Shown: one piece after another, positions 27,635 through 52,778 of the stretch | Position numbering within the stretch: the first letter of the stretch is position 1 | Layout of the letters: the number at the start of each line of letters is the position of its first letter | Assembly: GCA_009746045.1 (NCBI GenBank) | Contig: RPFO01000175.1 | Span: forward strand, 3,603,231 to 3,667,230 | DNA: 64,000 nt | Source: Mesostigma viride | Taxonomy: Eukaryota > Streptophyta > Mesostigmatophyceae > Mesostigmatales > Mesostigmataceae | Direction: 5' to 3' | Notes under the pieces: model-generated | The model's database searches: none | The model's input: only the letters and a program-made list of their open reading frames with translations | What the model was told of the DNA's origin: nothing | Position numbers and translations under genes: made by a program

Positions 27635-27653
27635 CGGGATTTTTATGAATACA

Positions 27654-27998
27654 AGTTAAAGCCCGACCGGCTCAGCTATGGCGGTCGGTCACGTTGAGCT
27701 TGGGATAAGGTGAACACAGAGAACTACCGTCGGAGCTGGCCCACCACTGGTTTATGTCTTAGCCAGCAAACCCTATCCGGTTAGCCGTAACCGTGGGACA
27801 AGCTAGCCGTCCGTACTGACCCGGATAAGGCCCCGGACTGGGGCCTAGGTGGCGCCGGCCCTAGGCGCCGCCCTTAGACCGGTCGCCCGCGTCGGACCGC
27901 CGGATTATAGCCGGCGGCTTAGCGGACGCTAGCGGGAGGCGTGCGGACGGACATGGGGAACTTAGAGCCAGATCCTAGGGCTCTAGAGTTACTCAACT
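27654..27998 (-). repeat. A1 5' LTR
   Basis: 345 bp, identical or nearly so to 21855-22199. The element ends are fixed by the flanking GTTGC duplication. Confidence 0.9.
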
Positions 27999-28406: not shown

Positions 28407-29569
28407 TAACGAAAGGAGGGCTCTCAGCCGAGGACAAGGAACTGTCCCTCGTGCCTGATGACCACCTTATTGCCTCCCCTGCTACAGAATAATGCTTTCA
28501 CAACACACACTTTGCACAGTCTGATGATGAAGCCGCACATGCGGAATTTATTGAGAAAGTTAATACAATTACAACACGTTGATAGTCTCAATATCGATGC
28601 ACTCCATGCTCACGAGCCCGCAGTTAGGCAGCGCTCCATGACATGCTACCGGCCTTGCTCCCAAGGAAAGGGAGAAACACGAAGGCCACTAACGAGAGAC
28701 TCGAAGAGACTACACGCTACGTGAGAGTCCTCTTCGACTATGAACCAAACCATTCGTCATGCCACACGCATGACACACGCCACACTTGTCAGTCCAGCCA
28801 GGAATGCCAAAACTATCTTGCTGCCTGAACCATGCAAACAGAAACCGCATTCCAGTTGCCGTCCTGGCTTACTACCACACATGCCAACAAAAACAGGAAG
28901 GCATCCCGACAAATCTAAATTGCTACCCTGTTGCCGATCTCATCTCCTAGAGGCTCCGGCATTTCTGTCCCTGGGAATGTCCGGCATTTAGTCACGACCA
29001 CCAAGGTCGAAGCATAATATCCTTCAAACAATCTGCACGCTCACACCTTGCGTGTGAGTGGCCCAGCAAACATTGCTTCTAATCTTTCCTTTCTAGAAGA
29101 AATCCCTTTTTAGGGCTGCCAGCGATTTCGCATTCATTCCAGCGATCTGGCTCCGCACCGCAAATCGTCCTTTTCCATTTTCTGTCCAGTCCTCATAACG
29201 TTGACCCGCTATTCTACACCACAAAGACACCTGGCCAGTCAATAGCCTCGGCGCTGTTGAAGTCCAGCAGTCCAGCAGTCCAGCTCCAGCTCCAGCTCCA
29301 GCTCCAGCTGTCCACTAACTCGCGTATGATCCTCTCGACGCTGCGCACTTGTGCTGCCGTCCGCTCAAGTACGTCTGTGCTGCGCGCCCAGCCGTGCCTG
29401 GCCCGGCGCGCGCGCACGTGCACTTTCGTCCGCTCTTATGCTGTAAGTGCTAGTGTCCCCCCCCCGGTCACTAGCCTTTGTCGAAAATGCGCAGAAAACA
29501 AATTCCTTGCGCACGTCACCGGTCTTGTGCATAGTGGGCGCCCGGATGACACAGCTCGCGTCCGTGACA
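28407..29569 (-). repeat. G 5' LTR
   Basis: About 1163 bp. The differences from the 3' LTR are few: a longer CAGCTC/CAGTC run near 29265-29310 and scattered substitutions. Confidence 0.85.
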
Positions 29570-29595
29570 AGCCACCATACCTGGGTTCTAGGTTC

Positions 29596-30291
29596 AGTTA
29601 ACGCCAAGCGCATTGGCATGATCCTGATTCGGCATATCTCTGCGATTCCAGCGGCACCGGAACGAGTTCATTCCGACAAGTATCAAGAAAGTTATGGCGT
29701 TCCGACTTCCCGGTCGCGCGCGAGCGCGAGCCGGCTGTTCTTCTAAGTCGGACGTGAATATTTGCCGACGGCATATGGGGTCGACAGTAATTCCTGGGCT
29801 GACAGGAATTAGGTGCTGTACCTACGACGGTATTGGATTAATACGTCGTACGCAGGAAATAGGAACCTTAACCTGTGGTCTGTTGGTACCGCAGGCTTAG
29901 TCCTGGACTTCTAGGTGCAGATGCAATAGTCACTGTGGACTGTGCTCTGTGGTCACTGTGCCTGTATGGCAGACCTACTGTATAGGATCTGGGCGCTGTA
30001 CAGGTAGTGAATACTGTACCGGGGGTGTTATTACTGAGCAGGCCTCCTAGGCTGCTCAGGACTAGCAAGCACAGTGCACAAGTATATAAAGAATAGGCCA
30101 GTGCCAATTGGGCATCTCTTGCGAGCCCGCCTCATGTGTGTTGCCTTGACTTGGCAAACTCGTGTACAAGCCTCAAGTGTGTGAGCGCTGTAACATTATC
30201 CAATTTTAACAAAGCTCCGTTTCCAACCATATTCACACATTGCTGCATTGCAACCATATCCTTCACATTGCGTTTGCTAAGAACGTTAACT
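29596..30291 (+). repeat. B1 5' LTR
   Basis: 696 bp, closely similar to both B2 LTRs and to the split 3' LTR. It holds the likely promoter (TATA box at 30083-30090). Confidence 0.9.
30083..30090 (+). promoter_or_regulatory. TATA box in the B LTR
   Basis: TATATAAA within AAGTATATAAAG, conserved in the split 3' LTR (54365-54372) and as TATATAAA in B2. It sits about 200 bp before the end of the LTR, as expected for a U3 promoter that drives transcription of the element. Confidence 0.55.
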
Positions 30292-30384: not shown

Positions 30385-31305
30385 ATGGTGCAGGAAGAAC
30401 AACGGCAGCAGAATTTCCGGGTTCGGCAGTCTGCTGGGGGTTCAATTTCGCCTGAATTGCGTCGTGTCGTTCGAGATTTATCTTTATTGCTTGCAGATCG
30501 TCCGCCTGTTAATCGCAGCTTCGTGCAATTCGTCGACGACCAGGTCGAAGATTGGGAGCGAATTCTGCGGCACGTCCAAACCATCGTCATTCCGGAGCAC
30601 CGGAGCATCGACGACCTCGAGCAAGAGCTTCACAGTTTGGTCGGCATCCAGACGGTGATTACAGCAGTAGCTGAGCGGGTGCGTGCGGAGTTGGCGGCTA
30701 GGCGAGGAGAGGCTGCGGAGGCAGCTGGTGCAGTGCGACACGAGTTCGTGCCGGCAGCAGCGGGTGCGGGTGTACCACGTACTTTCGCAGGCGTAATCGG
30801 CGATGAGAGTGTTGCAGCGGGACCAGTTCGACGTGAACGACGCGGAGCGGAGCACTACAGGCGGCTTGCAGAGGTCGGGGCGACAGCGGAAGCCATCACC
30901 GGAGGACAGCGTGCGGCACGAGTCGGCAGGTTTCCGGAGCGAGCAAGGGTTCCTTTTCAGGAACTGCCCCAACCCCTTCGCGTTCGTGTGACGCGTTGGG
31001 AAGAGTTTGTTCCTCTTGGTTACGATAGTGACCTTGAGGTGGGAGCAGTGGGCGTCGCTGGGCTAGGCGACGAGGCACTTGGCGACCACGAGGTGCCAAG
31101 ATACAATCCGCGGGGTGCCAACGACGGGTTGTCACCTGTCTATTATACTAACGGTGACGATTCTGTCATCGCGGGCCGACAGCGGGTCAACGACGGCGCA
31201 GCAGGTAGCAGGGTACCAGAGCTGATTGTGGTGAGCGACAGCGACAGCGACAGCGACAAGGAGAACCAGGACGCGCCTGCGGGCGACCGTGGTGGTCTTG
31301 CCTGA
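30385..31305 (+). CDS. B1 accessory ORF ahead of gag, 306 aa, unrecognised
   Basis: Lies between the 5' LTR and gag, in a frame different from gag. The N-terminal third (about residues 20-105) is predicted helical with regular Leu/Val spacing (RRVVRDLSLLLADRPPVN, DDQVEDWERILRHVQTIV), the middle is Ala/Arg-rich, and the C-terminus is acidic (VVSDSDSDSDKENQD). No cysteine clusters, signal peptide or membrane helix. The same ORF is in B2 (51986-51068) but broken there, so it is a family feature. Copia elements normally have gag as the first gene. Function unknown; a virion or regulatory protein is possible. Confidence 0.65.
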   Translation: MVQEEQRQQNFRVRQSAGGSISPELRRVVRDLSLLLADRPPVNRSFVQFVDDQVEDWERILRHVQTIVIPEHRSIDDLEQELHSLVGIQTVITAVAERVRAELAARRGEAAEAAGAVRHEFVPAAAGAGVPRTFAGVIGDESVAAGPVRRERRGAEHYRRLAEVGATAEAITGGQRAARVGRFPERARVPFQELPQPLRVRVTRWEEFVPLGYDSDLEVGAVGVAGLGDEALGDHEVPRYNPRGANDGLSPVYYTNGDDSVIAGRQRVNDGAAGSRVPELIVVSDSDSDSDKENQDAPAGDRGGLA

Positions 31306-32575: not shown

Positions 32576-33101
32576 TGTTTAAAATACATGAATGAGTTGA
32601 ATGTCGTTTATTGATGAATTTATTACGAGAGACATGGCATGAGAGACGATACTTTAGGTATGGCCCACATCGTATTTTTATAGGCAGAAAAGAGGTACTG
32701 CCAGATGGCAGTCAACCAAAGAACCATCGCCAGATTCTAGAATATTGTTTGTATGATTGCCAGATGTCATCTGTAAAATCAACCCTGATATAATGCATGG
32801 AATCTCATCCAGTAAAGTGACACCTGTCCATGGAATAAAGAATCAAGAATCACTGTCCATGTAACGTAGTGACATAGTTGCTGTCATACTAGTTGAGAAC
32901 CGTACACTATAACAAAAAACACACACAACATAGATTAATATCTTGCTAAGTACTGATTCAAAAAAGTCAGTAAAAATATCAGCACGTAGCTAATAAAACA
33001 CACTCCAAGAAATCACAAACAACACACAAAAGACCCACCTGCCCAGAATAGAAATAATTCAGGCATGTGGCCACTGGGAATAATTAATTAATTCCCAAAC
33101 A
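32576..33101 (-). repeat. C 3' LTR
   Basis: 526 bp, AT-rich, differing from 34793-35318 at only a few bases (for example CATCCAG versus CAAACAG). The near identity points to a recent insertion. Confidence 0.9.
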
Positions 33102-33369
33102 CCCCCCTTGGCAACTGCCTAAAGAGGGGAACACTCTAGTAGTGCTAGTACTATGTCCCAGTTTATATTCACCTATCAAACTAGTAACCATTTCCTAGCG
33201 GTCATTGCACTCAGGGCTAAGGACCTTTACAACTAGGACTAGGGCAGGTGATTGCTACGGGCCACCCCCCCTCAAACACATGCCCCGTAGTGAGCGGGCA
33301 ATAGGCTTTAAGGCAGAAGCATACCGGTACAAAGTGGTTTTTGGCTGACCACGAACCAAAAAAGACTAG

Positions 33370-34407
33370 TCACGACGGGACTAGTGCACTACGTAGACTA
33401 CCTACGCCGAGGTGGCCACGACGGGGCCACAATATGCAGCGGGTCACGACGGGACAACGCTGAAAAGTGTGCTTTTTGACATAGGGCTTAGCAACAAAAC
33501 CCGAAGAGATGCTTTTTGACGGTTCAGCAATAACCGACGAAAAAATGGAGAACCGGCTGGAAAATTTAAAATGCAAATGTGGGCGGCATTTCCGGTGCCT
33601 CCATTGTCGAGGTGCCCATGAGAGGGTTGGACTCCGTAAAATGCACGGCGCCGCCGTGGGGCTGGTTGCGACGCTCCGGATACTTGGTCCAGCAGCGCTC
33701 GACACGGTGGCCAGGGCGCTTGCAATGGCTGCACACCGGGCGAGTTGCAAATGCTTGGCCCGGTGGGAGCTGGCCTTCGTCGCGAGAAGGCGCAGCCGAG
33801 CCGGTGGGCGCAGTCGAACCGGCTGGGCGGTCCTTGAGCTGGTCAGCGGCTTGGAGGAGGAGGACGCGTGCGTCAGTGAGAGACATGTCATCACGCACAA
33901 AAACTGCAGCGACAAGTGGACGATATTTGGCCGGGAGGCCATCCAGCAGATTCTGGACGAATTCAGTCTCAGGGAGCGTCCCCCCAGCTTTAAGTACTCG
34001 CGGTAGCGTAGTTCATGTTCCGTCAAGGACAGGCCCATGTCGCCGTCATCAGCCAGCTCGCAGCGGTGTAGCTGACGACGGAGCTCCTGCTTGTGAGACC
34101 GGGTATGCCGTGGCTGGTCGTACACGGCATCCACGAGCTTGAACGCCACGCTGCCATGACGAGGCTCAGCTTGATCAGCAACGGTAAGCGCCTGACCGTC
34201 CAGGCGCGAACAAAGTGCAGCAAAAAGAATGCGGTCTTGTCGGTCGTTGACGTCGTCACCGTGCAGCACACTGAGCATGGTGAATGCTCCCGCGACAGAT
34301 TTGAAGCGAATTTTAAAAGCAGGGTAGTCGGCCAGTCTGGTACCGTTGAAAATAGGAATTCCGCTGACGGCACTAATGAGGGCCGTCTCCTTGAGTGCGT
34401 TCGCCAT
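33370..34407 (-). pseudogene. C Gag with zinc knuckle (frameshifted)
   Basis: Starts MANALKETALISAV. Residues about 18-140 match the copia Gag (UBN2-like) pattern: IPIFNGTRLADYPAFKIRF, RILFAALCSRLDGQAL, HELRYREYLK. A one-base shift near 33990 moves the true frame: VRDDMSLTDARVLLLQAADQL and the CCHC knuckle CSHCKRPGHRVERC are read in 33898-33566. The 345-codon frame beyond the shift is chance. It would make the particle shell if a helper supplied enzymes. Confidence 0.75.
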
Positions 34408-34756
34408 TTACGACGGATAAAATTTTAGACGCCAGGTAGGCTTTCAAGAGACTCTCGATTTCCGATAAGCTTGACGATTCGAATTGAAATACAGCTCCTT
34501 GCCACCGGATAATGATTTTGGCAGGAGGAACGTAAACAGACCTCAGAGAACTCTCAGGATAAAGTCCTGGTTTCTCGAATTGCTCATAGCCAACGGGATA
34601 CGCAATCACAGGTTCTTCGGCGACAATGACGCCTTGTTCCGGCTGTCCGAAAAAGTCTTCGAGATCGTCAAGTACGTCAAAGTCCCAAGGACGATTGACA
34701 AAATCGTCATCAGGCAAAAAATCATCGTCGTTTGCAAAAGTAGGAGAATCTGCCAT
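34373..34756 (-). CDS. C acidic ORF ahead of gag, 127 aa, unrecognised
   Basis: First ORF of C, ending 34 bases inside gag (overlapping, different frame). Asp-rich N-terminus (NDDDFLPDDDF, DVLDDLEDFFGQ) and a hydrophobic central stretch; no Cys motifs. Together with the B accessory ORF it suggests that a small gene ahead of gag is a recurring design in these elements, but the two proteins show no similarity I can see. Confidence 0.5.
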   Translation of the reverse strand: MADSPTFANDDDFLPDDDFVNRPWDFDVLDDLEDFFGQPEQGVIVAEEPVIAYPVGYEQFEKPGLYPESSLRSVYVPPAKIIIRWQGAVFQFESSSLSEIESLLKAYLASKILSVVNGERTQGDGPH

Positions 34757-34792
34757 GAGGAGAAACGGTGATCGAACATCCTCCCGATACCA

Positions 34793-35318
34793 TGTTTAAA
34801 ATACATGAATGAGTTGAATGTCGTTTATTGATGAATTTATTACGAGAGACATGGCATGAGAGACGATACTTTAGGTATGGCCCACATCGTATTTTTATAG
34901 GCAGAAAAGAGGTACTGCCAGATGGCAGTCAACCAAAGAACCATCGCCAGATTCTAGAATATTGTTTGTATGATTGCCAGATGTCATCTGTAAAATCAAC
35001 CCTGATATAATGCATGGAATCTCAAACAGTAAAGTGACACCTGTCCATGGAATAAAGAATCAAGAATCACTGTCCATGTAACGTAGTGACATAGTTGCTG
35101 TCATACTAGTTGAGGACCGTACACTATAACAAAAAACACACACAACATAGATTAATATCTTGCTAAGTACTGATTCAAAAAAGTCAGTAAAAATATCAGC
35201 ACGTAGCTAATAAAACACACTCCAAGAAATCACAAACAACACACAAAAGACCCACCTGCCCAGAATAGAAATAATTCAGGCATGTGGCCACTGGGAATAA
35301 TTAATTAATTCCCAAACA
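34793..35318 (-). repeat. C 5' LTR
   Basis: 526 bp; see 3' LTR. It is followed on the minus strand by the probable tRNA primer site. Confidence 0.9.
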
Positions 35319-35381
35319 AAGGGCAAGGGCAAGGCTGCTGATCATTGACTTGAGCCTGCACACATCCCTGAACCCTGGAGG
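35319..35381 (+). promoter_or_regulatory. In-frame TGA CTT between gag and pol of B1 (probable readthrough stop)
   Basis: Gag ends with GCT GCT GAT CAT TGA (TGA 35346-35348). The next codons, CTT GAG CCT GCA, continue open and in the same frame into pol, twelve codons before the GTG at 35382; pol has no ATG near its start. TGA followed by C is a leaky context (TGA CTA is a classic readthrough signal). B2 has the same arrangement (TGA 49793-49791). Confidence 0.6.
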
Positions 35382-38300
35382 GTGCCCCCAGGGGTGTGTA
35401 ATGTAGCTGCTAGTGACGGCAGTGAGGGGCAGCCCCATGCTCTAGTGACAGAGCCTATTGGACGCGATGGGGCAAGCTTGGTTACCACAGAGAGTATGCC
35501 AGCTGTAGCTGCAGTGGTTACTCGCCAACGTGCCCGCCATGGCGGTGCTGAGCCTGAGGTAGGACCTGGTGATGTGGACCCAGGTGGATCTCAGAAGCAT
35601 TCTGACCGTGCAGGACTGGCACAGGATGGTCAGGATGAGGATAGGGCTGGAGACAGTCTGACAGGCACGACCCTGGTGCCTCCTGTACATAAGGGATCTG
35701 TACATACCTTGAGTGCTAATAATGACAGTAAAAGATTTTCTCTCTTGTATGACATTGCCTCAAGGTTGCATACCATGTTTGGCCATGCAGCTCAGTCTTT
35801 GCAAGTTGCTAGACGGCTGGGAGGAAGTGAGTTGTACTCCATCTGCCAACAGGTTGCTCAAGCTTGCAAGTGCAGGCTAGTTGCTAGAAAGCCCAGGCAG
35901 TCTCATGCCAGGACTCCTATTTTGCAGCCAGGCCATGTGCAGGTAGATATTCAGAGAATCAGGGGTTTGAAGCTGCTGGTGGCAGTGGACAGATATACCA
36001 AGTACAAGACCCTAGAGATCCTGCCTGACATGGAGAAGCCTACATTAATTGCTGCTCTGAAGTTGACAAGGAGCAGGTACCCTGGGTTAGAGTTGTTGCA
36101 GTGTGACATTCAGTTTGAGTGCTGTGAGAACCTGCCAGAGTTTCCAGAGTTGCTGATTACACCCAGGGAGAGCCACGGCCAGCAAGGGGTGGTGGAGAGA
36201 GCCATCCAAGAGATCAAGACTGTGCTGCTGGTGGAGAGGATTCCAAGGACGTCATCTGCCATTGTGACATCTGCATGGCTACGTTCTGTGGAGGATAGGC
36301 TGAACCTCAGGACTCCCATGTTCTTTGGTGACATTGCCATCAATCCTCTTATGCTGCATACCAGGATGCTGCCAGCTGATGCTGAGCAGGCATGGAAGGA
36401 GAAGCTAGAGGCCAAGTTCCTCAAGCTGAGGCAGAAAGACAAGGGCTGGAGTGTCCTAGAACCTAACGTTGGACAACAGGTTGTTGTGTGGAAGGAACCA
36501 AGCTTTCCAGGGAAACGTGGCAGCTGGCATGATGGGGTGGTGACCCGAGTAGAAGCCGCTGGCCATAAGTGCTGGGTGGCCATTGATGGCTCCCAAGCAG
36601 TGCACCGTCTGTCCTGGTCAAAGATCCGTCCCCGGGGAGGTAATCAAGGAGACCTCTTCCAGGTGCCCGTTGGTGTACAAGGCGGGGGTGACGTGGAGCT
36701 TCCTGATCAGGGTGCTACAGCTGTATCGAGCCCTCAGGGTGACCCTGGCCCGGCCCCTGGGGTACCTTCACATACGGTGGTTGGGCAAGCAGGCGGACAG
36801 GCTGCACCTCCGGAACGGCCCGACACCAGGCCTAGGGGTGTGCGTCTATCAGATATTGTACAGGCTTTGCAAAGAGCCAAGAAGGAGCCTAAGGTGTCCA
36901 AGCTTGTCCAGTTGGATGAACCTGAGGTAGCTGCCATGGAGATAGATACCAATGCACAGGTTTCTGTCATGGGACCTCAGCATACAGGAGAACTGCTGGT
37001 CGGAGAACCAAGTTGCCCCTGGGTGTCTGATTTCAGTGGTAGGACGCATCTAAGGGTGTTGGGAGAGGTTACTGCCCCTGTCATGGGTGTGGATGTGACC
37101 TTCCTTGTCCTAGAGGACTATGATGGCCCTGTGATTTTGGGTCAGAATTTTCTGGGCAATCCTGGGATTTCTATCAGAGCTACAGCTCTGAAAAGAGATG
37201 GCTGGGGGATGATTCCCCTAGAAAATTTCAGGACAACATTTTCAATCAGGTGCAGGGCCAAGCCGGTCAAGGGTGTAAAATGGGATGAAGGGGAGGTGCC
37301 CCCAGCAGCCAGTTTGGTGATTCCAGCTGTGTTGCACCCCAGCAGTATTGGCATAACTCACAGGAGCCTTGCTGCACACTCTCCTTTGACATATGACCAG
37401 CTAGTCCAAGAGATGAGCTCGCCTACTTTGTTTGAGGCTTGGAAGCTCGCCTTCTCCAAGGCATTGGAGGAGTGGTTGCAGTTTGAGTGTGCTGCACCAA
37501 CAGACAGACGTCCCCCAGCATCAAGGAAGCTTGCTTTGAGATTTGTGCTGAAGAGGAAGGTTGTGGATGAGGTATCAGTGCCCCATGTCAGGCCTGTCCT
37601 GAATGAGTATCACGGCACGGGGAGTCTGCCAGGAGAGGAGCTGTACACGCCAGGGATGCTACACGACACATGGAGAATTTTGCTATGTCTCTACGTGGGG
37701 TTGCTGAACAGGGGAGCAGCTATGTCATCAGTGCTGCTGGACTTCAAGAGGGCATTTTTAAAATCTGATCCAGAAGTGGCCAGGAGGGTGTGGAAGCAGG
37801 ATGAGCCTTACTGTGTTGAGGTGCCTGCCATCTGGAAGCTGGAGCTGCATCAACAATTCCTGGTTATTCTGAAGGGCCTGGAAGGACTCAGGTCGAGCCC
37901 AATCATCTGGAGACTCACGCTGCAGGAAGCTCTGATCAGTGAGTGTGGCTTGAGAGTGTCTTCAGTTGATCCCTGTTTGCTGCTGGCCCAATGGGAGGGT
38001 CTGCCAGTGTATGCTAGTTTGCATGGAGATGATCTGCATTTGCTAGCCCCCACGACCTGGCTGAAGAAGTTTATTCCTGTCATCAGTGGCAAGTTTTCAC
38101 TGGGCAAGGAGCTGTGGCAGGAGCCCAACAAGCCTGTAGTGTTCTGTGGAATGCAGGCTACCCTGTTCAGGAGGGATGGGGAGTGGAGTATCAGGCTTCA
38201 GGCTGGAGGAGATTATAAACAGACCATTGTGAAGGCCTTGCCAGAGAAGATCACCCAGGCTGCAGGACCTGAGTTGAGAGGCATGTGGGCCTGGTTTGCC

Positions 38301-38939
38301 AGCATCTGTGGTCCGTCTTTGATGGTCCATAGCAGAATGCCTGATGAGGTGCTTGAGGATGAGAAGCCTCGAGTCATAGCCCGGTTGGTGGAGAGTACCC
38401 CTGATCTGATTTTGTCTGGGATTGACTTTGCCCAGCCTATCACCTTGGAGATCTTTGTTGACAGTTCCATGGATGCTCGCCAGGTTACCAAGGTCAGGGG
38501 GAGATCTGCTGCTCTGTTTGCTTTTTATCAGAGCAGGGCAAGTTTGTTCAGCTGGTACAGCAGACTGCAGAAGAGGGTCTGTATCAGTTCAGATGTGGCA
38601 GAATGCAGGGCCATATGCGAGGGGATCCAGTCCAGCCTGTACATAAAGGAGTTAATGCTGGAGCTGGCTTCAGTTACCCCTTGGACCTTGCAGATGGAGA
38701 CGTTGTTGCTAACAGACAGCATGGGTATGGTCCAGTTTGTTCACAAGCAGCTGGCCAGAAGCCGGGACCTGGATTATTTGTTGCTGAAGGAGTTGGCCAG
38801 TTTGGTTGACTTGAAGCATATCCCTGGCGAGGAGAACCCTGCTGATGCATTGACAAAGCTGCCACACAAGGCCCCAGCCCAGTACAATGTACTGAGGAAG
38901 CTCATGAATGCTGACTGTCAAGTCGGTCTATCTGTCTAA
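35382..38939 (+). CDS. B1 Pol, 1185 aa: integrase, protease, reverse transcriptase, RNase H
   Basis: Intact. Integrase zinc finger H130-H135 with C162/C164; catalytic core Asp189, Asp242, Glu272 (spacing D-x29-E, shorter than the usual x35); SH3-like C-terminal part (VGQQVVVWKEPSFPGKRG, about 363-380). Then, after a Pro/Gly-rich linker, a retroviral-type protease: MEIDTNAQVSVM (Asp522) and GPVILGQNFL (about 582-591). RT: LLDFKRAFLKSD (Asp787) and LHGDD (Asp883-884). RNase H: VDSSMD (Asp1027), AECRAICEG (Glu1074), TDSMG (Asp1112), NPADALTK. The protease thus follows the integrase, unlike in Ty1/copia. The protein is about 99% identical to that of B2 (about 11 differences). Confidence 0.9.
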   Translation: MPPGVCNVAASDGSEGQPHALVTEPIGRDGASLVTTESMPAVAAVVTRQRARHGGAEPEVGPGDVDPGGSQKHSDRAGLAQDGQDEDRAGDSLTGTTLVPPVHKGSVHTLSANNDSKRFSLLYDIASRLHTMFGHAAQSLQVARRLGGSELYSICQQVAQACKCRLVARKPRQSHARTPILQPGHVQVDIQRIRGLKLLVAVDRYTKYKTLEILPDMEKPTLIAALKLTRSRYPGLELLQCDIQFECCENLPEFPELLITPRESHGQQGVVERAIQEIKTVLLVERIPRTSSAIVTSAWLRSVEDRLNLRTPMFFGDIAINPLMLHTRMLPADAEQAWKEKLEAKFLKLRQKDKGWSVLEPNVGQQVVVWKEPSFPGKRGSWHDGVVTRVEAAGHKCWVAIDGSQAVHRLSWSKIRPRGGNQGDLFQVPVGVQGGGDVELPDQGATAVSSPQGDPGPAPGVPSHTVVGQAGGQAAPPERPDTRPRGVRLSDIVQALQRAKKEPKVSKLVQLDEPEVAAMEIDTNAQVSVMGPQHTGELLVGEPSCPWVSDFSGRTHLRVLGEVTAPVMGVDVTFLVLEDYDGPVILGQNFLGNPGISIRATALKRDGWGMIPLENFRTTFSIRCRAKPVKGVKWDEGEVPPAASLVIPAVLHPSSIGITHRSLAAHSPLTYDQLVQEMSSPTLFEAWKLAFSKALEEWLQFECAAPTDRRPPASRKLALRFVLKRKVVDEVSVPHVRPVLNEYHGTGSLPGEELYTPGMLHDTWRILLCLYVGLLNRGAAMSSVLLDFKRAFLKSDPEVARRVWKQDEPYCVEVPAIWKLELHQQFLVILKGLEGLRSSPIIWRLTLQEALISECGLRVSSVDPCLLLAQWEGLPVYASLHGDDLHLLAPTTWLKKFIPVISGKFSLGKELWQEPNKPVVFCGMQATLFRRDGEWSIRLQAGGDYKQTIVKALPEKITQAAGPELRGMWAWFASICGPSLMVHSRMPDEVLEDEKPRVIARLVESTPDLILSGIDFAQPITLEIFVDSSMDARQVTKVRGRSAALFAFYQSRASLFSWYSRLQKRVCISSDVAECRAICEGIQSSLYIKELMLELASVTPWTLQMETLLLTDSMGMVQFVHKQLARSRDLDYLLLKELASLVDLKHIPGEENPADALTKLPHKAPAQYNVLRKLMNADCQVGLSV

Positions 38940-39443: not shown

Positions 39444-39788
39444 AGTTAAAGCCCGACCGGCTCAGCTATGGCGGTCGGTCACGTTGAGCTTGGGATAAGG
39501 TGAACACAGAGAACTGCCGTCGGAGCTGGCCCACCACTGGTTTATGTCTTAGCCAGCGAACCCTATCCGGTTAGCCGTAACCGTGGGACAAGCTAGCCGT
39601 CCGTACTGACCCGGATAAGGCCCCGGACTGGGGCCTAGGTGGCGCCGGCCCTAGGCGCCGCCCTTAGACCGGTCGCCCGCATCGGACCGCCGGATTATAG
39701 CCGGCGGCTGAGCGGACGCTAGCGGAAGGCGTGCGGACGGACATGGGGAACTCAGAGCCAGATCCTAGGGCTCTAGAGTTACTCAACT
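39444..39788 (-). repeat. A2 3' LTR
   Basis: 345 bp. It shares private differences with the A2 5' LTR (for example AACTGCCGTCGG, CCCGCATCGG) against A1, as expected for LTRs of one insertion. Confidence 0.9.
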
Positions 39789-40165
39789 CCGACATACTCT
39801 TTTGTTCTTTGATTAATTATCAAAATAATTACATCAAATGCAGACCATACAAAACCCTCTAAGGTAGGGAACTCAAGGGGGCCTCAAGGCCGTCAAAATC
39901 ACCACGGTATCGACCCGCGCCCTTGTGATCACACATGAATAGTGATGTAATAAGTAGCGAGCAAAAACCAACTATGCCACCAGACAAAAGGTGACCCATT
40001 TATTAGGACCAGTGACCCGCCGACGGGCCCAAGGCACCGTCCAACGTGGCTAGGGTATGGTCATGACAAGCAAAAAAACTACCACCAAGATACTCGTGAA
40101 TGCTAGCAACACAGGGTGAGTTATGGCTGTATTCATAAAGCGCCCGAGCCGTAACCCTGTGTGGC
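39789..40165 (-). other. A2 3' untranslated region
   Basis: Matches the A1 region 22200-22577 with a few substitutions. No gene. Confidence 0.6.
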
Positions 40166-40717
40166 TCACGGGTGTTGCATCGTCATGCGCTTGCGCAACA
40201 CTGCGTACTGCGGGGCAGCCTCCCGCGCCTCCTTGGTGAGTGCATCCGCGGGATTGAGTTCATCCGCGATGTGCTGGAGACGCGTGACGCAGGAGGCCGC
40301 CTCAGCGAGTACGAGGTAATCAACGTCCTGTGACCGCGCATAGGGATTGTCAAGGAAAGCCAAACAACTTTGTGAGTCAGTGTGCACCGTGCTAGTCCAG
40401 TGAAGAGTGAACCCACGACGAGATAAATACCGGATGCTTGCGTGTCCACAGCCACCAGCTGCCATGAGAGATAGGAAACAATGCCCCGGCATTCAGCCGT
40501 GTGAGGGCTAGTGAGCAATGCGGCTGTGCAAGCGCTGAGCACCAACTAAGGCCATGCCAGGCTGGCCCTCATTGCTGATAAAGAACAGCGCCCCCATGCG
40601 GGCCCGCACTTGGCTGACTGGCGGGCCTCCCACATTATCCGTGGCTAGCACAGGAGGTGAGTCACTACGTGCACTAGGTCCCGTCAAACCCACCCCATCC
40701 TCATCCCACCCATCCAC
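40166..40717 (-). pseudogene. A2 ORF2 remnant: deleted and scrambled
   Basis: Reading on the minus strand: the first 33 codons of ORF2 (up to NVGGPP), then a jump of about 1.8 kb into RNase H (VSQVRARMGALFF), then a 33-bp piece from the protease active-site region (GGATGCTTGCGTGTCCACAG, 40432-40465, matching A1 24563-24596) in place of part of RNase H, and finally the RNase H end with NPADALTK. Protease and RT are lost. The patchwork suggests template switching or repair with short homologies. Confidence 0.8.
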
Positions 40718-43467
40718 GGGGTCATATTGGGGCCCAGGGGAGGGGGGGGTGTAGCTGTGTCTGCCCCTGGGAGCGACCCGTGGGGTACCACCTCAGATGC
40801 TACGACAGGCGCATTATCCTTCACTACCCACCCCAGTTCCCTGTTGGCTGCCAGCTCACTCTCCATGCTATCCCCTTGCTTATAGCCTGCCACCGATGCC
40901 CATGGTACCCTATACACCCGATCATTCCACTCTATGTCTATGACCCGCAGCGGCCAGTCTAACTTTGTGATGGCCCCAGGCCCCTGCATGGTGCCCCGTT
41001 TGCCGCTGGGCGAGCTCTCCTTGTGGAACATGACCAACTGCCCGACCTCAAAAGCGCTAGACAAATCAGGCAGCGTGGCATCCTTGAGCCGCAGCTTGGC
41101 GGCGGTATCCTGTAGATGCTGCTGGTATGCCTCTACTACCTCGGGTGAGTAGGTGCCCGCTGACAGCCCCCGAGGCGTGACTAACCCAAAGCCCTTGACA
41201 TCAAGCACGTGCCTATGGTTGCACACATGCATGAGCTCCTTGCACCACGCCGTCTTGACCGCGTAGGATTTGCCATGTGGGTTATCCTGTCGCTTGGCTG
41301 CCACAGTCTTGACATAGCTTACAGTGCGATCTATCATGCCCATATTGCCGTGATCCTCCCGCCCCACGATGACCACGGCCTCCATCCCCGGCAAACCTTG
41401 CACACAGCGGAACTGCTGGTCTAGCATGAGCTCCACTACGGGATGAAAGAAAGCCAGGCTGATCTTGATAGCCCTGTGCAGGTCAGCCTCATACATGTGG
41501 GGCAGCGGCTCAATGTAGGTGACCTTGCTGAACCTATCCTTGACTATGAAATAGGTGTCCCCCCCTTCCATGTGCATGACATCCCCCACAAGGTACCCTC
41601 GCTCCAAGGGTGGAGTCTTGGCATGCCGCCTACGCGACTTCTTCCTGATCTTGATGCAGGCAGGACACTGAGCACGCACATTCTTCAGCTCGTTGTATAA
41701 AGGTGCCCCCAACATGTGTGCCCCCTCTACCTCGGCTTGGGCCTCATGCCCGAATGCACGGTGCATCTGGTATGCTAGCAGTTTCAGGGTGACAGCCTGA
41801 GGTGCAGTGGCATTGTCAGGGTTCTCAACAGGTGGGGTGACTACTGGGGTAGTGACATTGGCTAACTGGGCAGCTTCAGAGGCTGCACGAAAGGCCGCCC
41901 GTGTGAGCACCTTGCCAATGTGAAGATCCACACTAGGGTGGTGTGTACCGAGAACATCTGCCCGCCCAGCATTCTCTTGCACTGTCACAACATTCCTCAT
42001 AGGCCCAACCGCCCCAGTATCTAGCTGGGGTGCTGCAGTAGTGCTTGGTCGCTCGGCGTTGTACACACCCGACCTAGAAGACACCACATTGCTTAGGTCA
42101 CGCATTGTAGACCCGTGCTCAGGAAGCACGTGATCCTGGCGCGACAGAGCCAGAGCAGCATCAACGGATTGCGTGAGCACATCACGGAAGGAGACAGAGG
42201 ATGCAGTCACGTTGCTTTTAGGAACGACGTCAGGCTCTACGACGGCCCGGTTCAGCGTGACGCATTGAGCAAAAGAAGGGGTATTGAGCGTGCTCTCACC
42301 TGACTTTCGTGCTGCCCGTCGCTCTGCCCACTCCTCGCGTGTGCCGTGGACGACGATGCGCTTGGCCTTGCACGCCTCCACGCTGTGACCACGCAGAACG
42401 TCATGGCACTTGCGGCAAAGGTTGTCCTCGAGCTCCAGGTCCGGGCGAACTCGGCAGTCATCCCGGACATGGCGACGTCCGAAGCAGCGCTCACAGCGTT
42501 GCTTGCGGTCAGTAGACGCCCCCTGCTGCCGCTTGGCCGGGGGATTATCACCCTGCTTGGCGTCGCCACCATGCCCGCGCTTGCGCCCTCCCTGGCCCCC
42601 GTTGTTGCCGTGGCCGACGACCTTTTTCAGGATGGCCGTAAGCTCCGACCGCGTAATGGGAGCCTCTGCGCCTGAAGAAGAAGACGCGCCGGCATCCACC
42701 TTGCGCAGGGATGGCAGAGCAGCCGAGGCAGCCGGCTTGGACTGCGCACTCTTGAAGCATGAGATCAAATACAGCATGCCCTCGTCGAAACTGACGGCAC
42801 TCTTCTTTTTGAGTTCCGTCGCTATGGTCAGATGCACATCCGACGACAGGTCGCATTTCTTGAGAAATCGATTGCACAGGAAAATGGGCTTGAGTGTATC
42901 TAGCAGCTTGTGCTTGTGCACGAAGACCTGGAAATCACGTGCAGCCCCGGGCAAATTTGCCTTATTAACTGCATAGCCCTCGAAGTCGTTGAAGGCTTGC
43001 TCGTCGGCCTCTTCCTTAGACCGCGACAAGTGGGCATCTAGACCGTTGTAAAAAACTTCCCAGGTTTGTTTGTTGTCGTCCGCAATGCGAACTAGATTGG
43101 CAATGTTTGGGTGCTTTGTTGTACTGCAGAATACTGCACGGAACTTGCCAATCAGCTCCGAATCTTTGTCTGCGCGTCCATCGCGCAGACGCTTGAGAGC
43201 AGCTAGAAAATCTGCTGCGTCGTCCGCCGTATAGTCGGCCGGTAGATCAGCGGGCACCTCCGTTTGCTTGAGAGGGCCGCGATTTAGTGCATCGTCAGCA
43301 GCAAGCATCAGATGCTTGAACTGCTTGGCCAGTTCAGGTTGCGCCACGAGGGTTTGCATCAACCTCGTGGCCTCGTCCGCACTAAAGCGTGGCAGGACGG
43401 ACCCTGCGGCCTCGCCACTTGGCGTATCTGTGTGTTCGCCCGTGCGGCTCCGTGTACCGGAAGCCAT
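40684..43467 (-). CDS. A2 ORF1, intact: Gag, two zinc knuckles, integrase (927 aa)
   Basis: Gag domain about residues 25-240; knuckles C325-x2-C-x4-H-x4-C338 and C351-x2-C-x6-H-x4-C366; integrase zinc finger H569-H574, C601-C604; core with Glu634 (no Asp at the first catalytic position), Asp683 and Asp713 (in place of Glu), spacing D-x29-D; SH3-like C-terminal part (VGQLVMFHKESSPSGKRG). No protease fold lies between knuckles and integrase; a lone LDTGAVG at 482-488 lacks the second protease strand at the right distance. The ORF ends at 40684, overlapping ORF2 in the -1 frame with the C8 run at 40749-40742. Confidence 0.85.
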   Translation of the reverse strand: MASGTRSRTGEHTDTPSGEAAGSVLPRFSADEATRLMQTLVAQPELAKQFKHLMLAADDALNRGPLKQTEVPADLPADYTADDAADFLAALKRLRDGRADKDSELIGKFRAVFCSTTKHPNIANLVRIADDNKQTWEVFYNGLDAHLSRSKEEADEQAFNDFEGYAVNKANLPGAARDFQVFVHKHKLLDTLKPIFLCNRFLKKCDLSSDVHLTIATELKKKSAVSFDEGMLYLISCFKSAQSKPAASAALPSLRKVDAGASSSSGAEAPITRSELTAILKKVVGHGNNGGQGGRKRGHGGDAKQGDNPPAKRQQGASTDRKQRCERCFGRRHVRDDCRVRPDLELEDNLCRKCHDVLRGHSVEACKAKRIVVHGTREEWAERRAARKSGESTLNTPSFAQCVTLNRAVVEPDVVPKSNVTASSVSFRDVLTQSVDAALALSRQDHVLPEHGSTMRDLSNVVSSRSGVYNAERPSTTAAPQLDTGAVGPMRNVVTVQENAGRADVLGTHHPSVDLHIGKVLTRAAFRAASEAAQLANVTTPVVTPPVENPDNATAPQAVTLKLLAYQMHRAFGHEAQAEVEGAHMLGAPLYNELKNVRAQCPACIKIRKKSRRRHAKTPPLERGYLVGDVMHMEGGDTYFIVKDRFSKVTYIEPLPHMYEADLHRAIKISLAFFHPVVELMLDQQFRCVQGLPGMEAVVIVGREDHGNMGMIDRTVSYVKTVAAKRQDNPHGKSYAVKTAWCKELMHVCNHRHVLDVKGFGLVTPRGLSAGTYSPEVVEAYQQHLQDTAAKLRLKDATLPDLSSAFEVGQLVMFHKESSPSGKRGTMQGPGAITKLDWPLRVIDIEWNDRVYRVPWASVAGYKQGDSMESELAANRELGWVVKDNAPVVASEVVPHGSLPGADTATPPPPLGPNMTPWMGGMRMGWV

Positions 43468-43486
43468 CGGGATTTTTATGAATACA

Positions 43487-43831
43487 AGTTAAAGCCCGAC
43501 CGGCTCAGCTATGGCGGTCGGTCACGTTGAGCTTGGGATAAGGTGAACACAGAGAACTGCCGTCGGAGCTGGCCCACCACTGGTTTATGTCTTAGCCAGC
43601 GAACCCTATCCGGTTAGCCGTAACCGTGGGACAAGCTAGCCGTCCGTACTGACCCGGATAAGGCCCCGGACTGGGGCCTAGGTGGCGCCGGCCCTAGGCG
43701 CCGCCCTTAGACCGGTCGCCCGCATCGGACCGCCGGATTATAGCCGGCGGCTGAGCGGACGCTAGCGGAAGGCGTGCGGACGGACATGGGGAACTCAGAG
43801 CCAGATCATAGGGCTCTAGAGTTACTCAACT
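43487..43831 (-). repeat. A2 5' LTR
   Basis: 345 bp; nearly identical to 39444-39788. The gag ATG follows 20 bases downstream on the minus strand. Confidence 0.9.
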
Positions 43832-44079: not shown

Positions 44080-44534
44080 AGTTAACGCCAAGCGCATTGG
44101 CGTGATCCTGATTTGGCATATCTCTGCGATTCCAGCGGCACCGGAACGAGTTCATTCCGACAAGTATCAAGAAAGTTATGGCGTTCCGACTTCCCGGTCG
44201 CGCGCGAGCGCGAGCCGGCTGTTCTTCTAAGTCGGACGTGAATATTTGCCGACGGCATATGGGGTCGACAGTAATTCCTGGGCTGACAGGAATTAGGTGC
44301 TGTACCTACGACGGTATTGGATTAATACGTCGTACGCAGGAAATAGGAACCTTAACCTGTGGTCTGTTGGTACCGCAGGCTTAGTCCTGGACTTCTAGGT
44401 GCAGATGCAATAGTCACTGTGGACTGTGCTCTGTGGTCACTGTGCCTGTATGGCAGACCTACTGTATAGGATCTGGGCGCTGTACAGGTAGTGAATACTG
44501 TACCGGGGGTGTTATTACTGAGCAGGCCTCCTAG
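44080..44534 (+). repeat. B1 3' LTR, first part
   Basis: 455 bp of the 696-bp B LTR, cut at CTAG by unit T. The rest is at 54329-54573. Confidence 0.9.
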
Positions 44535-44549
44535 TGTTAAGCCTCCCAC

Positions 44550-44586
44550 GGTCCTTAATTTAGGACAAAGTCCTAAATTAAGGACC
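44550..44586. repeat. Perfect hairpin at the left end of T
   Basis: 17-bp stem GGTCCTTAATTTAGGAC, loop AAA, and the exact complementary arm. The following stretch is rich in GTACC/GGTACC repeats (44600-44720). Confidence 0.85.
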
Positions 44587-44753
44587 AATTTACTATAACC
44601 TAGGTACCGGGGGGGGGGTCACTATATGGACCGTACCCCATGTGGACCGTACCCGGCATGATGTACCCGACCCGTGGTACCGGCACATGGTACCCGGATT
44701 CCGTACCCGGGTACCGGGTATAATGGCGGGAAAGTAGGTACCTCGACCAAAAA

Positions 44754-45451
44754 AGTTAAGCTTTCTTAGCACACGCAATGTGAAGGATATGGTTGCAATG
44801 CAGCAATGTGTGAATATGGTTGGAAACGGAGCTTTGTTAAATCGGATAATGTTTACAGCGCTCAACACTTGAGGCTTGCACACGAGCTTGCCAAGTCAAG
44901 GCACAACACGTGAGGCGGGCTCGCAAGAGATGCCCATTTGGCACTGGCCTATTGTTTATATACTTGTGCACTGTGCTTGCTAGTCCTGAGCAGCCTAGGA
45001 GGCCTGCTCAGTAATAACACCCCCGGTACAGTATTCACTACCTGTACAGCGCCCAGTTCCTATACAGTAGGTCTGCCATACAGGCACAGTGACCACAGAG
45101 TACAGCCACCACAGTGATTATTGCATCTGCACCTAGAAGTCCAGGACTAAGCCTGCGGTACCAACAGACCACAGGTTAAGGTTCCTATTTCCTGCGTACG
45201 ACGTATTAATCCAATACCGTCGTAGGTACAGCACCTAATTCCTGTCAGCCCAGGAATTACTGTCGACCCCATATGTCGTCGGCAAATATTCACGTCCGAC
45301 TTAGAAGAACAGCCGGCTCGCGCTCGCGCGCGACCGGGAAGTCGGAACGCCATAACTTTCTTGATACTTGTCGGAATGAACTCGTTCCGGTGCCGCTGGA
45401 ATCGCAGAGATATGCCGAATCAGGATCACGCCAATGCGCTTGGCGTTAACT
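44754..45451 (-). repeat. B2 3' LTR
   Basis: About 698 bp, close to 52080-52773; the plus-strand ends read AGTTAAG and GGCGTTAACT. Confidence 0.9.
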
Positions 45452-46199
45452 CCAATCCTTTCTTTTCTTGAGCTGTAGCAGCTCACACAAGTCTACATAC
45501 AAACACACACAATGGGTACTGGATATCCTCCCCAGACTACAAGTCACAACCCGCTGGGCATGACAGTCAGCTTGGATTCCTTATTATATGTACATAGCAC
45601 CCATACTGGCTCAGGAGCACAAACAAATTACAATGAGTCCCTATCCCTTCACGGGAGGCTCGTTGTGTTACCCATGTACAAGAGGTTGGCCAACTGTGGC
45701 AGCCCATAGGTGTTCAGTTAAGAACTTGAGAAGTATGTACAACCTTCAGGACCTTAGGCGAAACCCCACAGATCACCCACAACAGCTCATCAGAAAACAT
45801 TGCTGACCCCCAGACGGGAGTCGGCGCCGGTCTGCTGCCCCTTATCGAACCAGACACAACATCTACGCGAAGCACATGCAAAACACAAGCTCCCATACTC
45901 GTTCCAACCGTGGAAAATCAGGGGACCTGTCGCCACCTCACCAGCATGGTGGATGGGTCAGCCAGTCCGTGAAACTCCGCCTTAAGACGGCACCAGGGAA
46001 TCGAACCCCGCCCACAAACCACAGATCTGGGGAAACCTCAGACTGAGATGAAAACCCCAGATAGACATCTCTCCATCAGAGACAATGTCAGACATTCCCA
46101 CACCAGAGACATGTCTCACCCCTCAAGGTGTGCTCAGGATTATGTACAATCAAGCTCCCAGCCTGATATCCAGAGACTTAAGCACCCAGCTCTCAGCTT
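45452..46199 (-). other. B2 3' untranslated region
   Basis: Inverted equivalent of the B1 3' region without insertion. The polypurine tract is at its left end (rc of CCAATCCTTTCTTTTCTTG). No gene. Confidence 0.6.
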
Positions 46200-49100
46200 T
46201 TAGACAGATAGACCGACTTGACAGTCAGCATTCATGAGCTTCCTCAGTACATTGTACTGGGCTGGGGCCTTGTGTGGCAGCTTTGTCAATGCATCAGCAG
46301 GGTTCTCCTCGCCAGGGATATGCTTCAAGTCAACCAAACTGGCCAACTCCTTCAGCAACAAATAATCCAGGTCCCGGCTCCTGGCCAGCTGCTTGTGAAC
46401 AAACTGGACCATACCCATGCTGTCTGTTAGCAACAACGTCTCCATCTGCAAGGTCCAAGGGGTAACTGAAGCCAGCTCCAGCATTAACTCCTTTATGTAC
46501 AGGCTGGACTGGATCCCCTCGCATATGGCCCTGCATTCTGCCACATCTGAACTGATACAGACCCTCTTCTGCAGTCTGCTGTACCAGCTGAACAAACTTG
46601 CCCTGCTCTGATAAAAAGCAAACAGAGCAGCAGATCTCCCCCTGACCTTGGTAACCTGGCGAGCATCCATGGAACTGTCAACAAAGATCTCCAAGGTGAT
46701 AGGCTGGGTAAAGTCAATCCCAGACAAAATCAGATCAGGGGTACTCTCCACCAACCGGGCTATGACTCGAGGCTTCTCATCCTCAAGCACCTCATCAGGC
46801 ATTCTGCTATGGACCATCAAAGACGGACCACAGATGCTGGCAAACCAGGCCCACATGCCTCTCAACTCAGGTCCTGCAGCCTGGGTGATCTTCTCTGGCA
46901 AGGCCTTCACAATGGTCTGTTTATAATCTCCTCCAGCCTGAAGCCTGATACTCCACTCCCCGTCCCTCCTGAACAGGGTAGCCTGCATTCCACAGAACAC
47001 TACAGGCTTGTTGGGCTCCTGCCACAGCTCCTTGCCCAGTGAAAACTTGCCACTGATGACAGGAATAAACTTCTTCAGCCAGGTCGTGGGGGCTAGCAAA
47101 TGCAGATCATCTCCATGCAAACTAGCATACACTGGCAGACCCTCCCATTGGGCCAGCAGCAAACAGGGATCAACTGAAGACACTCTCAAGCCACACTCAC
47201 TGATCAGAGCTTCCTGCAGCGTGAGTCTCCAGATGATTGGGCTCGACCTGAGTCCTTCCAGGCCCTTCAGAATAACCAGGAATTGTTGATGCAGCTCCAG
47301 CTTCCAGATGGCAGGCACCTCAACACAGTAAGGCTCATCCTGCTTCCACACCCTCCTGGCCACTTCTGGATCAGATTTTAAAAATGCCCTCTTGAAGTCC
47401 AGCAGCACTGATGACATAGCTGCTCCCCTGTTCAGCAACCCCACGTAGAGACATAGCAAAATTCTCCATGTGTCGTGTAGCATCCCTGGCGTGTATAGCT
47501 CCTCTCCTGGCAGACTCCCCGTGCCGTGATACTCATTCAGGACAGGCCTGACATGGGGCACTGATACCTCATCCACAACCTTCCTCTTCAGCACAAATCT
47601 CAAAGCAAGCTTCCTTGATGCTGGGGGACGTCTGTCTGTTGGTGCAGCACACTCAAACTGCAACCACTCCTCCAATGCCTTGGAGAAGGCGAGCTTCCAA
47701 GCCTCAAACAAAGTAGGCGAGCTCATCTCTTGGACCAGCTGGTCATATGTCAAAGGAGAGTGTGCAGCAAGGCTCCTGTGAGTTATGCCAATACTGCTGG
47801 GGTGCAACACAGCTGGAATCACCAAACTGGCCGCTGGGGGCACCTCCCCTTCATCCCATTTTACACCCTTGACCGGCTTGGCCCTGCACCTGACTGGAAA
47901 TGTTGTCCTGAAATTTTCTAGGGGAATCATCCCCCAGCCATCTCTTCTCAGAGCTGTAGCTCTGATAGAAATCCCAGGATTGCCCAGAAAATTCTGACCC
48001 AAAATCACAGGGCCATCATAGTCCTCTAGGACAAGGAAGGTCACATCCACACCCATGACAGGGGCAGTAACCTCTCCCAACACCCTTAGATGCGTCCTAC
48101 CACTGAAATCAGACACCCAGGGGCAACTTGGTTCTCCGACCAGCAGTTCTCCTGTATGCTGAGGTCCCATGACAGAAACCTGTGCATTGGTATCTATCTC
48201 CATGGCAGCTACCTCAGGTTCATCCAACTGGACAAGCTTGGACACCTTAGGCTCCTTCTTGGCTCTTTGCAAAGCCTGTACAATATCTGATAGACGCACA
48301 CCCCTAGGCCTGGTGTCGGGCCGTTCCGGAGGTGCAGCCTGTCCGCCTGCTTGCCCAACCACCGTATGTGAAGGTACCCCAGGGGCCGGGCCAGGGTCAC
48401 CCTGAGGGCTCGATACAGCTGTAGCACCCTGATCAGGAAGCTCCACGTCACCCCCGCCTTGTACACCAGCGGGCACCTGGAAGAGGTCTCCTTGATTACC
48501 TCCCCGGGGACGGATCTTTGACCAGGACAGACGGTGCACTGCTTGGGAGCCATCAATGGCCACCCAGCACTTATGGCCAGCGGCTTCTACTCGGGTCACC
48601 ACCCCATCATGCCAGCTGCCACGTTTCCCTGGAAAGCTTGGTTCCTTCCACACAACAACCTGTTGTCCAACGTTAGGTTCTAGGACACTCCAGCCCTTGT
48701 CTTTCTGCCTCAGCTTGAGGAACTTGGCCTCTAGCTTCTCCTTCCATGCCTGCTCAGCATCAGCTGGCAGCATCCTGGTATGCAGCATAAGAGGATTGAT
48801 GGCAATGTCACCAAAGAACATGGGAGTCCTCAGGTTCAGCCTGTCCTCCACAGAACGTAGCCATGCAGATGTCACAATGGCAGATGACGTCCTTGGAATC
48901 CTCTCCACCAGCAGCACAGTCTTGATCTCTTGGATGGCTCTCTCCACCACCCCTTGCTGGCCGTGGCTCTCCCTGGGTGTAATCAGCAACTCTGGAAACT
49001 CTGGCAGGTTCTCACAGCACTCAAACTGAATGTCACACTGCAACAACTCCAACCCAGGGTACCTGCTCCTTGTCAACTTCAGAGCAGCAATCAATGTAGG

Positions 49101-49757: not shown

Positions 49758-49790
49758 CCTCCAGGGTTCAGGGATGTGTGCAGGCTCAAG

Positions 49791-51041: not shown

Positions 51042-51067
51042 GAAAGGAAAGTGCCAAGTGTTACCAC

Positions 51068-51986
51068 TCAGGCAAGACCACCACGGCTGGCCCCAGGCGC
51101 GTCCTGGTTCTCCTTGTCGCTGTCGTCGTCGCTGTCGCTCACCACAATCAGCTCTGGTACCCTGCTACCTGCTGCGCCGTCGTCGACCCGCTGTCGGCCC
51201 GCGATGACTGAATCGTCACCGTTGGTAAAGTAGACAGGTGACAACCCGTCGTTGGCACCTCGCGGATTGTACGTTGGCACCTCGTGGTCGCCAAGTGCCT
51301 CGTCGCCTAGCCCAGCGACACCCCCTGCTCCTACCTCAAGGTCACTCTCGTACCCAAGAGGTGCAAACTCCTCCCAACGCGTCACACGAACGCGAAGGGG
51401 CGGGGGCAGCTCCTGAAAAGGAACTCTTACTCGCTCTGGAAACCTGCCGACTCTTGTCGCGCGCTGTCCTCCGGCGATGGCTTCCGCTGTCGCCCCGACC
51501 TCTGCAAGCCGCCTGTGATGCTCCGCTCCGCGTCGTTCACGCCTAACTGGCCCGCTGCAACACCCTCGTCGCCGATGCCGCCTGCGAAAGCACGTGGTAC
51601 TCCCGCGCCCGCTACTGTCGGCACAAACTCGTGTCGCCCTGCGCCAGCTGCTCCGCAACCTCGCCTCGCCTTGCTGCCAACTCCGTCCGCACTCGCTCTG
51701 CTACTGCAGTAATCACCGTCTGGATGCCGACCAACCCGTGAAGCTCCTGCTCAAGGTCGTCGATGCTCCGGTGCTCCGGAATGACGATGGTTTGTACGTG
51801 TCGCAGAATTCGCTCCCAATCTTCGACCTGGTCGTCGACGAATTGCACGAAGCTGCGATTTACAGGCGGACGATCTGCAAGCAATAAAGATAGATCCCGA
51901 ACGACACGGCGTAATTCAGGAGAAATCGAACCCCCAGCAGACTGCCGAAACCGGAAATCCTGCTGCCGTTGTTCCTCCTGCACCAT
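51068..51986 (-). pseudogene. B2 accessory ORF ahead of gag (frameshifted)
   Basis: Counterpart of the B1 306-residue ORF. The N-terminal half (51986-51612) and C-terminal half (51658-51068) are in different frames, joined near 51640. The C-terminus is again acidic (VVSDSDDDSDKENQDAP). It shows that the ORF is an inherited part of the family. Confidence 0.6.
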
Positions 51987-52773: not shown

Positions 52774-52778
52774 AAAAA

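Follow-up and report, generated by a model that had tools for sequence, protein, structure and literature searches.

The 64,000-nucleotide stretch of Mesostigma viride DNA analyzed here (contig RPFO01000175.1, positions 3,603,231 to 3,667,230 of the forward strand; hereafter the window) contains long terminal repeat (LTR) elements that comparison of the window with itself by BLAST found to be nested inside one another. Four insertions belong to two families, A (copies A1 and A2) and B (copies B1 and B2), in which the integrase is followed by a protease-like domain, reverse transcriptase (RT) and RNase H. This order is real in both families, where it is accompanied by RT and RNase H of the copia type, no detectable protease upstream of the integrase, target site duplications (TSDs) of 5 bp and LTR termini of the form AGTT..AACT. 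The coding features concerned are as follows.

35346 to 35348, forward strand: TGA stop of B1 gag, followed by CTT G, with pol continuing in the same frame; the same TGA, in the same setting, lies at 49793-49791 in B2
35382 to 38939, forward strand: B1 pol open reading frame (ORF), 1185 aa, with integrase, protease-like domain, RT and RNase H in that order, from the ORF list and domain matches; the frame is open from 35349
35742 to 36656, forward strand: B1 integrase, with an HHCC-like region, D189, D242 and E272, and an SH3/Agenet-like C-terminal region
36924 to 37241, forward strand: B1 protease-like domain (residues 515-620), with DTN (D522) and ILG; PF13975 match below cut-off
37407 to 38156, forward strand: B1 RT, copia type, with HGDD; copia profile E 1.2e-13, hhalign of A+B 2e-18
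38439 to 38870, forward strand: B1 RNase H, copia type; copia profile E 5.5e-13, hhalign of A+B 8.3e-14
46200 to 49757, reverse strand: B2 pol ORF, with the same succession of modules
49794 to 50114, reverse strand: C-terminal part of B2 gag with a CCHC zinc knuckle (zf-CCHC E 2.5e-05), ending at the TGA
40684 to 43467, reverse strand: A2 ORF1, intact gag-integrase, 927 codons with the stop left uncounted, from the ORF list
24856 to 24961, reverse strand: overlap of A ORF1 and ORF2, 106 bases, with ORF2 in the -1 frame; identical in A2
24308 to 24613, reverse strand: A1 ORF2 protease-like domain, with DTQ and LLG; PF13975 E 0.24 and 0.15
23390 to 24271, reverse strand: A1 ORF2 RT, copia type, with HGDD; copia profile E 2.3e-10 (piece 24271-23150)
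22581 to 23381, reverse strand: A1 ORF2 RNase H, copia type, in a separate frame; copia profile E 1.2e-10

Along B Pol, D189, D242 and E272 of the integrase are followed by D522 of the protease-like domain, an ILG motif near residue 585 and HGDD at 881-884, and matching to the canonical copia Pol profile places RT at residues 680-907 and RNase H at 1054-1163. An earlier note on this DNA, made from its letters alone, had described this succession in two 1185-aa copies, and the landmarks lie where it put them. The Pol proteins of B1 and B2 are 99% identical and their genes differ at 21 codons (10 synonymous differences, 11 not), the spacer formed by residues 1-118 holding 5 of the 11 amino acid changes. 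With limits picked after the list of changes had been viewed, four synonymous and no other changes fall in residues 173-429, and five synonymous changes and one other in residues 623-1185, which speaks for selection on these parts. As the open frame begins right after the TGA, the GTG start of the listed B1 ORF is merely a convention of the program that lists ORFs. Both copies of gag are frameshifted, at differing sites, and Pfam gag families matched neither B1 gag nor A2 ORF1, the zinc knuckle being found in B2. B1 also has an extra 306-aa ORF between its 5′ LTR and gag (30385-31305, forward strand; no Pfam match at E 1 or below), the B2 counterpart of which is frameshifted.

In family A, gag and integrase are encoded by ORF1, and the protease-like domain, RT and RNase H by ORF2, so that A differs from B by a stop and a change of frame between the integrase and the protease-like domain. 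ORF1 of A1 is broken by frameshifts, and an internal deletion took out the protease-like domain and the RT of A2; ORF2 of A1, which is frameshifted too, close to the RT end, thus carries the only surviving copy of both in this family. B Pol aligns to ORF1 and then to ORF2 (residues 125-427 with ORF1, 28% identity, E 3e-31; residues 519-910 and 919-1176 with ORF2, 35% and 39% identity, E 1e-63 and 2e-57), which establishes that the module order is common to both families and bears out the split arrangement that had been read from the letters of A. A window full of nested, broken elements, and the frameshifted ORFs of A1, whose LTRs are nonetheless identical, might invite the notion that misassembly, or rearrangement in defective copies, created the order. 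This is scarcely credible, given that B1 and B2 inserted independently, on opposite strands and each with its own TSD, that their 1185-aa Pol is intact, and that family A presents the same order at another locus.

The affiliation of the RT and RNase H was assessed against copia elements collected by a pattern scan, which yielded 27 open-frame stretches with a copia RT motif, in bacterial records; 19 of them were aligned to build profiles, and eight short or partial frames were left out by choice. Among four references submitted to Pfam, three displayed gag, zinc knuckle, Pol_BBD (the copia protease region), gag_pre-integrase, rve, SH3 and RVT_2 in that order, and the fourth kept the order without the zinc knuckle only. 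Likewise, the protease motif precedes HHCC in all eight references (of 27) in which regular expressions for D[ST]GA and for HHCC both matched. The copia RT and RNase H profiles recognized both families with the E-values listed above, the other pieces among the 12 queried scoring E 0.5 or worse on either profile. Pfam RVT_2 matched neither A nor B, nor did the Pfam gypsy RT and RNase H families, the references used for comparison being copia only. RT identity between A and B is 37%, as compared with 17-27% to the references and a median of 38% from reference to reference (18 elements), and in a tree with 18 copia references A and B group together with a support of 1.0 on a long stem. Judged from RT sequences, the distance between the two families is thus like that between typical copia lineages, in keeping with the earlier description of two distantly related families that share one order.

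The integrases are less easily classified. The copia integrase profile gave E 0.0029 for A and 0.095 for B, and 4.7e-28 for the gypsy-like element E3 of the same window, so that the integrases of A and B are divergent from both the copia and the gypsy types. Pfam rve matched the B piece at E 0.089 and was not listed for the A piece. When aligned jointly by hhalign, A and B matched the copia integrase (E 0.0011, probability 21%) over the HHCC region and the three acidic residues, and matched the E3 integrase about as well (E 0.0013, probability 19%). The second Asp and the Glu of B are separated by 29 residues versus 35 in three copia references (six were tested and the motif was found in three), and the third acidic residue of A is an Asp in both A1 and A2. 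NCBIfam related the B integrase piece to an IS481 transposase (E 0.012), which fits a DDE core. The C-terminal region of the B integrase (36510-36635, B Pol 377-418) resembles Agenet/Tudor domains (Agenet E 0.0098), and the joint A+B profile weakly matched a UHRF2 chain (E 0.54); from such resemblances, this region may possibly be a chromatin-reading part.

No other protease was detected between the zinc knuckle and the integrase by Pfam, the copia profile or hhalign. The 237 residues between these landmarks in A ORF1 (330-566) gave no Pfam match with an E-value of 1 or less, and the tail of B2 gag matched zinc-finger models only and no protease family; the copia protease profile gave E 1.6 for the A piece and 1.7 for B Pol 1-118. 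A diverged protease could still be imagined in A ORF1, where the string LDTGA precedes the HHCC region by about 85 residues in both A1 and A2, yet this is very improbable. The string was rejected as a hidden protease, its surroundings having yielded only the silent Pfam and profile searches just given and an hhalign match of 12 columns at E 0.27, and neither DTG nor DSG occurs in B Pol 1-118 or in the B2 gag tail.

Between integrase and RT, the domain shared by the two families is 31-36% identical between A and B, with the Asp, the Thr, the Ala and the LG of ILG (in B) or LLG (in A) kept. Pfam PF13975 (gag-asp_proteas) matched it in A and B, and no other scanned piece, at E 0.16-0.17 for the B pieces and 0.15-0.24 for the A pieces, in a search of 24,736 models. 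The match extends from the catalytic Asp through ILG or LLG in the longer B piece and in both A pieces, the best stretch in the shorter B piece comprising the ILG end only; assuming no preceding gap, A, B and E3 all have their catalytic Asp at position 15 of the profile. Only about twenty of the models are retropepsin-like, so that two matches at the right place are less likely to arise by chance than the raw E-values imply; families A and B are homologous, however, and the two matches are not independent. Taken alone, the PF13975 evidence is weak. NCBIfam searches with the protease pieces of A, B and E3 came back empty, a PDB sequence search returned nothing relevant, and patterns run over IMG/VR and GTDB genomes matched some stretches, none of which was confirmed as a relative.

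Together, these observations make it probable that A and B are LTR elements whose RT and RNase H are of the copia type and whose polyprotein consists of gag, integrase, protease-like domain, RT and RNase H in succession. The protease that copia elements normally carry between gag and integrase is undetectable, and the domain behind the integrase would be a retropepsin-like clan-AA domain of the ILG type with DTN or DTQ at its active site. Several points weigh against this reading. The PF13975 matches lie below the curated cut-off, are absent from whole-ORF scans at E up to 1 and sit among chance matches of like E (DUF6898 ranks above PF13975 in B, SPT16 below it in A). At the active site, B1 and B2 have DTN and A1 has DTQ, DTG and DSG being absent, and the A-type domain is kept in A1 only, on a broken ORF2. 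In comparisons with the E3 protease, the B domain did no better than shuffled sequences, 608 of 1000 of which reached its score; for the A domain, 14 of 1000 did. Two AlphaFold models, with predicted local distance difference test (pLDDT) values of 42 and 54, are too poor to test the fold, and the fold matches listed for them included SH3/CarD-type barrels and others and no retropepsin. Furthermore, the copia protease profile leaves even the E3 protease unrecognized (E 0.23), so that the silence upstream of the integrase rules out no more than a copia protease of fairly ordinary type, and the integrase itself is matched weakly in both families and ends its catalytic triad with an Asp in A.

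Some of these points would also suit a domain that is a retropepsin remnant or has a structural role without catalysis, with processing performed by a host enzyme, by another element in trans, or not at all. The replacement of DTG or DSG by DTN or DTQ in both families, the broken ORF2 of A1 and the SH3-like barrels returned for the poor models speak for such a domain. We nevertheless regard it as unlikely, since the Asp, the Thr, the Ala and the LG have been kept across the divergence of A and B, and since residues 515-600 differ between B1 and B2 by neither a synonymous nor an amino acid change, the nearest amino acid changes being at 604, within the domain, and at 621 and 622. Moreover, regular expressions found DSG or DTG in 12 of 14 copia reference proteases and Ala for Gly in the other two, so that the position may tolerate change.

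If the domain is a protease, its origin can be read in two ways. The earlier note took the elements for a lineage with a rearranged copia pol, of which the copia-type RT and RNase H and the upstream integrase hold; that the copia protease itself moved from before the integrase to behind it is distinctly doubtful. The usual copia order (protease, integrase, RT, RNase H) and the lack of a detected upstream copy would suit such a move. Against it, the copia protease profile gave E 1.1 for the A domain and 2.3 for the B domain, no better than unrelated pieces among the 12, while RT and RNase H matched strongly; when A and B were each compared singly with the 14 reference proteases, the score was reached by 8 of 200 shuffles in the best case; and all 14 references are LLS-type (LLS, LIS or ILS), a motif that both families lack. 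The ILG motif fits the gain of a foreign clan-AA domain and the loss of the copia protease better than a simple move. We tentatively propose, as a possibility somewhat short of an even chance, that A and B represent a deep copia-related lineage that lost its own protease and gained a foreign clan-AA retropepsin that works with DTN or DTQ, its A branch carrying the integrase at the Gag level. In such a lineage, protease and RT would have come to be neighbors, as they are in gypsy elements and retroviruses.

The expression signals of the two families differ. UGA followed by C is a leaky stop context, and B Pol would be made by readthrough of the UGA that ends gag. In family A, the ORF overlap contains a run of eight C followed by T (24918-24910) that would permit a C-CCC-CCT slip, and the ORF2 frame lacks an ATG upstream of the codon for the catalytic Asp in the protease-like domain. 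Gag-integrase would thus be the main product, to which a -1 frameshift in the overlap would add protease-like domain, RT and RNase H; polymerase slippage on the C run is an alternative to ribosomal frameshifting. Because the frameshift lies after the integrase, family A would make, and package, its integrase at the Gag level. In either family, the protease-like domain would be expected to dimerize and cut the polyprotein, and the integrase to be freed from Gag through cuts on both its sides.

How these elements relate to known systems can be specified on several counts. With Ty1/copia they share the type of RT and RNase H, an integrase located before the RT, an HHCC-like region with a DDE/D core and 5-bp TSDs. 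On the other hand, their protease-like domain follows the integrase, carries ILG or LLG rather than LLS and DTN or DTQ at the active site, the integrase spacing is 29 instead of 35, and their LTRs end in AGTT..AACT, whereas those of Sire and Retrofit begin with TGTT in the accessible text of one study (PMC3601003). The available sections of a 2009 survey state that pr precedes int in every Ty1/copia element known, and that proteases carry LLS in copia, very rare exceptions apart, and ILG in most cases elsewhere (Llorens 2009; PMC2774666). As no protease was detected before the integrase and the LLS-type motif is absent, A and B are regarded as copia-related and not as members of Ty1/copia as defined. 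The same sections recognize five states for the position of int, and in none does it lie between gag and protease (PMC2774666). Gmr1-type Ty3/gypsy elements, as described there, similarly depart from the pol order of their own superfamily, yet they are gypsy elements with the integrase after the protease as in copia, whereas A and B combine a copia-type RT with an integrase before the protease (PMC2774666). In one listed state, that of the caulimovirid PVCV, the integrase also comes early in the genome, there upstream of gag and here between gag and the protease-like domain (PMC2774666). Ty3/gypsy elements, including the errantiviruses of the Zam group, have a protease of the ILG type directly before the RT, as here; they differ from A and B, in which RT and RNase H are of the copia type and the integrase lies upstream of the RT and not after RNase H. 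The Zam group has LTR ends AGTTAYRK..TAAYT according to the part of Benachenhou 2013 at hand, likewise without TG..CA, so that such ends are already known, though outside copia (PMC3601003). A literature search for the order integrase, protease, RT, RNase H listed no such element, which is no proof of its absence from print, and term searches of PMC5718144 returned nothing on domain order. The accessible text of a survey covering 13,863 elements, mainly from plants, states that those whose domain order was unexpected were removed as likely mispredictions (PMC6317226).

LTR-retrotransposon superfamilies are defined with the help of pol module order. If real and inherited, the order described here would show pol modules to be exchangeable, and elements of this kind to escape classifiers that rely on order. 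Two further questions become accessible to experiment through it, namely how an integrase is freed by a protease located behind it, and whether a retropepsin can function without its active-site glycine.

The elements themselves are delimited as follows.

29596 to 54573, forward strand: outer limits of B1, from self-BLAST, ends and TSD
29596 to 30291, forward strand: B1 5′ LTR
44080 to 44534 plus 54329 to 54573, forward strand: B1 3′ LTR
29591 to 29595 and 54574 to 54578: B1 TSD, GGTTC
32576 to 35318, 39444 to 43831 and 44535 to 54328: nested insertions within B1
44754 to 52773, reverse strand: B2, with LTRs at 52080-52773 and 44754-45451 and TSD TTTTT
21855 to 27998, reverse strand: A1, with LTRs at 27654-27998 and 21855-22199 and TSD GCAAC
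39444 to 43831, reverse strand: A2, with TSD GTGGC
63247 to 63995, reverse strand: RNase H fragment of a third related family, 39% identical to A and 36% to B

A 5-bp TSD flanks all four insertions of A and B, which also have the AGTT..AACT termini in common; those of E4, another element of the window, are TG..CA. The two LTRs of A1 are identical (345/345), a sign that family A integrated recently, perhaps through its own integrase. The third family leaves the window at its right edge, so that its domain order is unreadable there. No exact reverse complement of the first 8-12 internal bases, as self-priming would involve, was found in the 5′ LTRs of B1 and A1, and Rfam and tRNA scans returned nothing.

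Other residents of the window include E4 (32576-35318), a short element inserted in B1 gag, with 526-bp LTRs that are 99.4% identical and a single 345-aa ORF without a Pfam match. The gypsy-like ORF of E3 (17153-20281, reverse strand) encodes a protease, an integrase of the H2C2-rve type and a PHD finger and is flanked by LTRs at 15829-16982 and 28407-29569 (98.6% identical); only about 240 aa separate the protease from the integrase, which leaves no space for RT and RNase H. Two direct repeats of 1049 bp, 99.7% identical and 443 bp apart (11717-14257), begin with TGTCACG, like E3 in its own orientation, and represent the two LTRs of an element of very small size. Finally, a tandem array of a 12-bp unit occupies positions 60909-61238.

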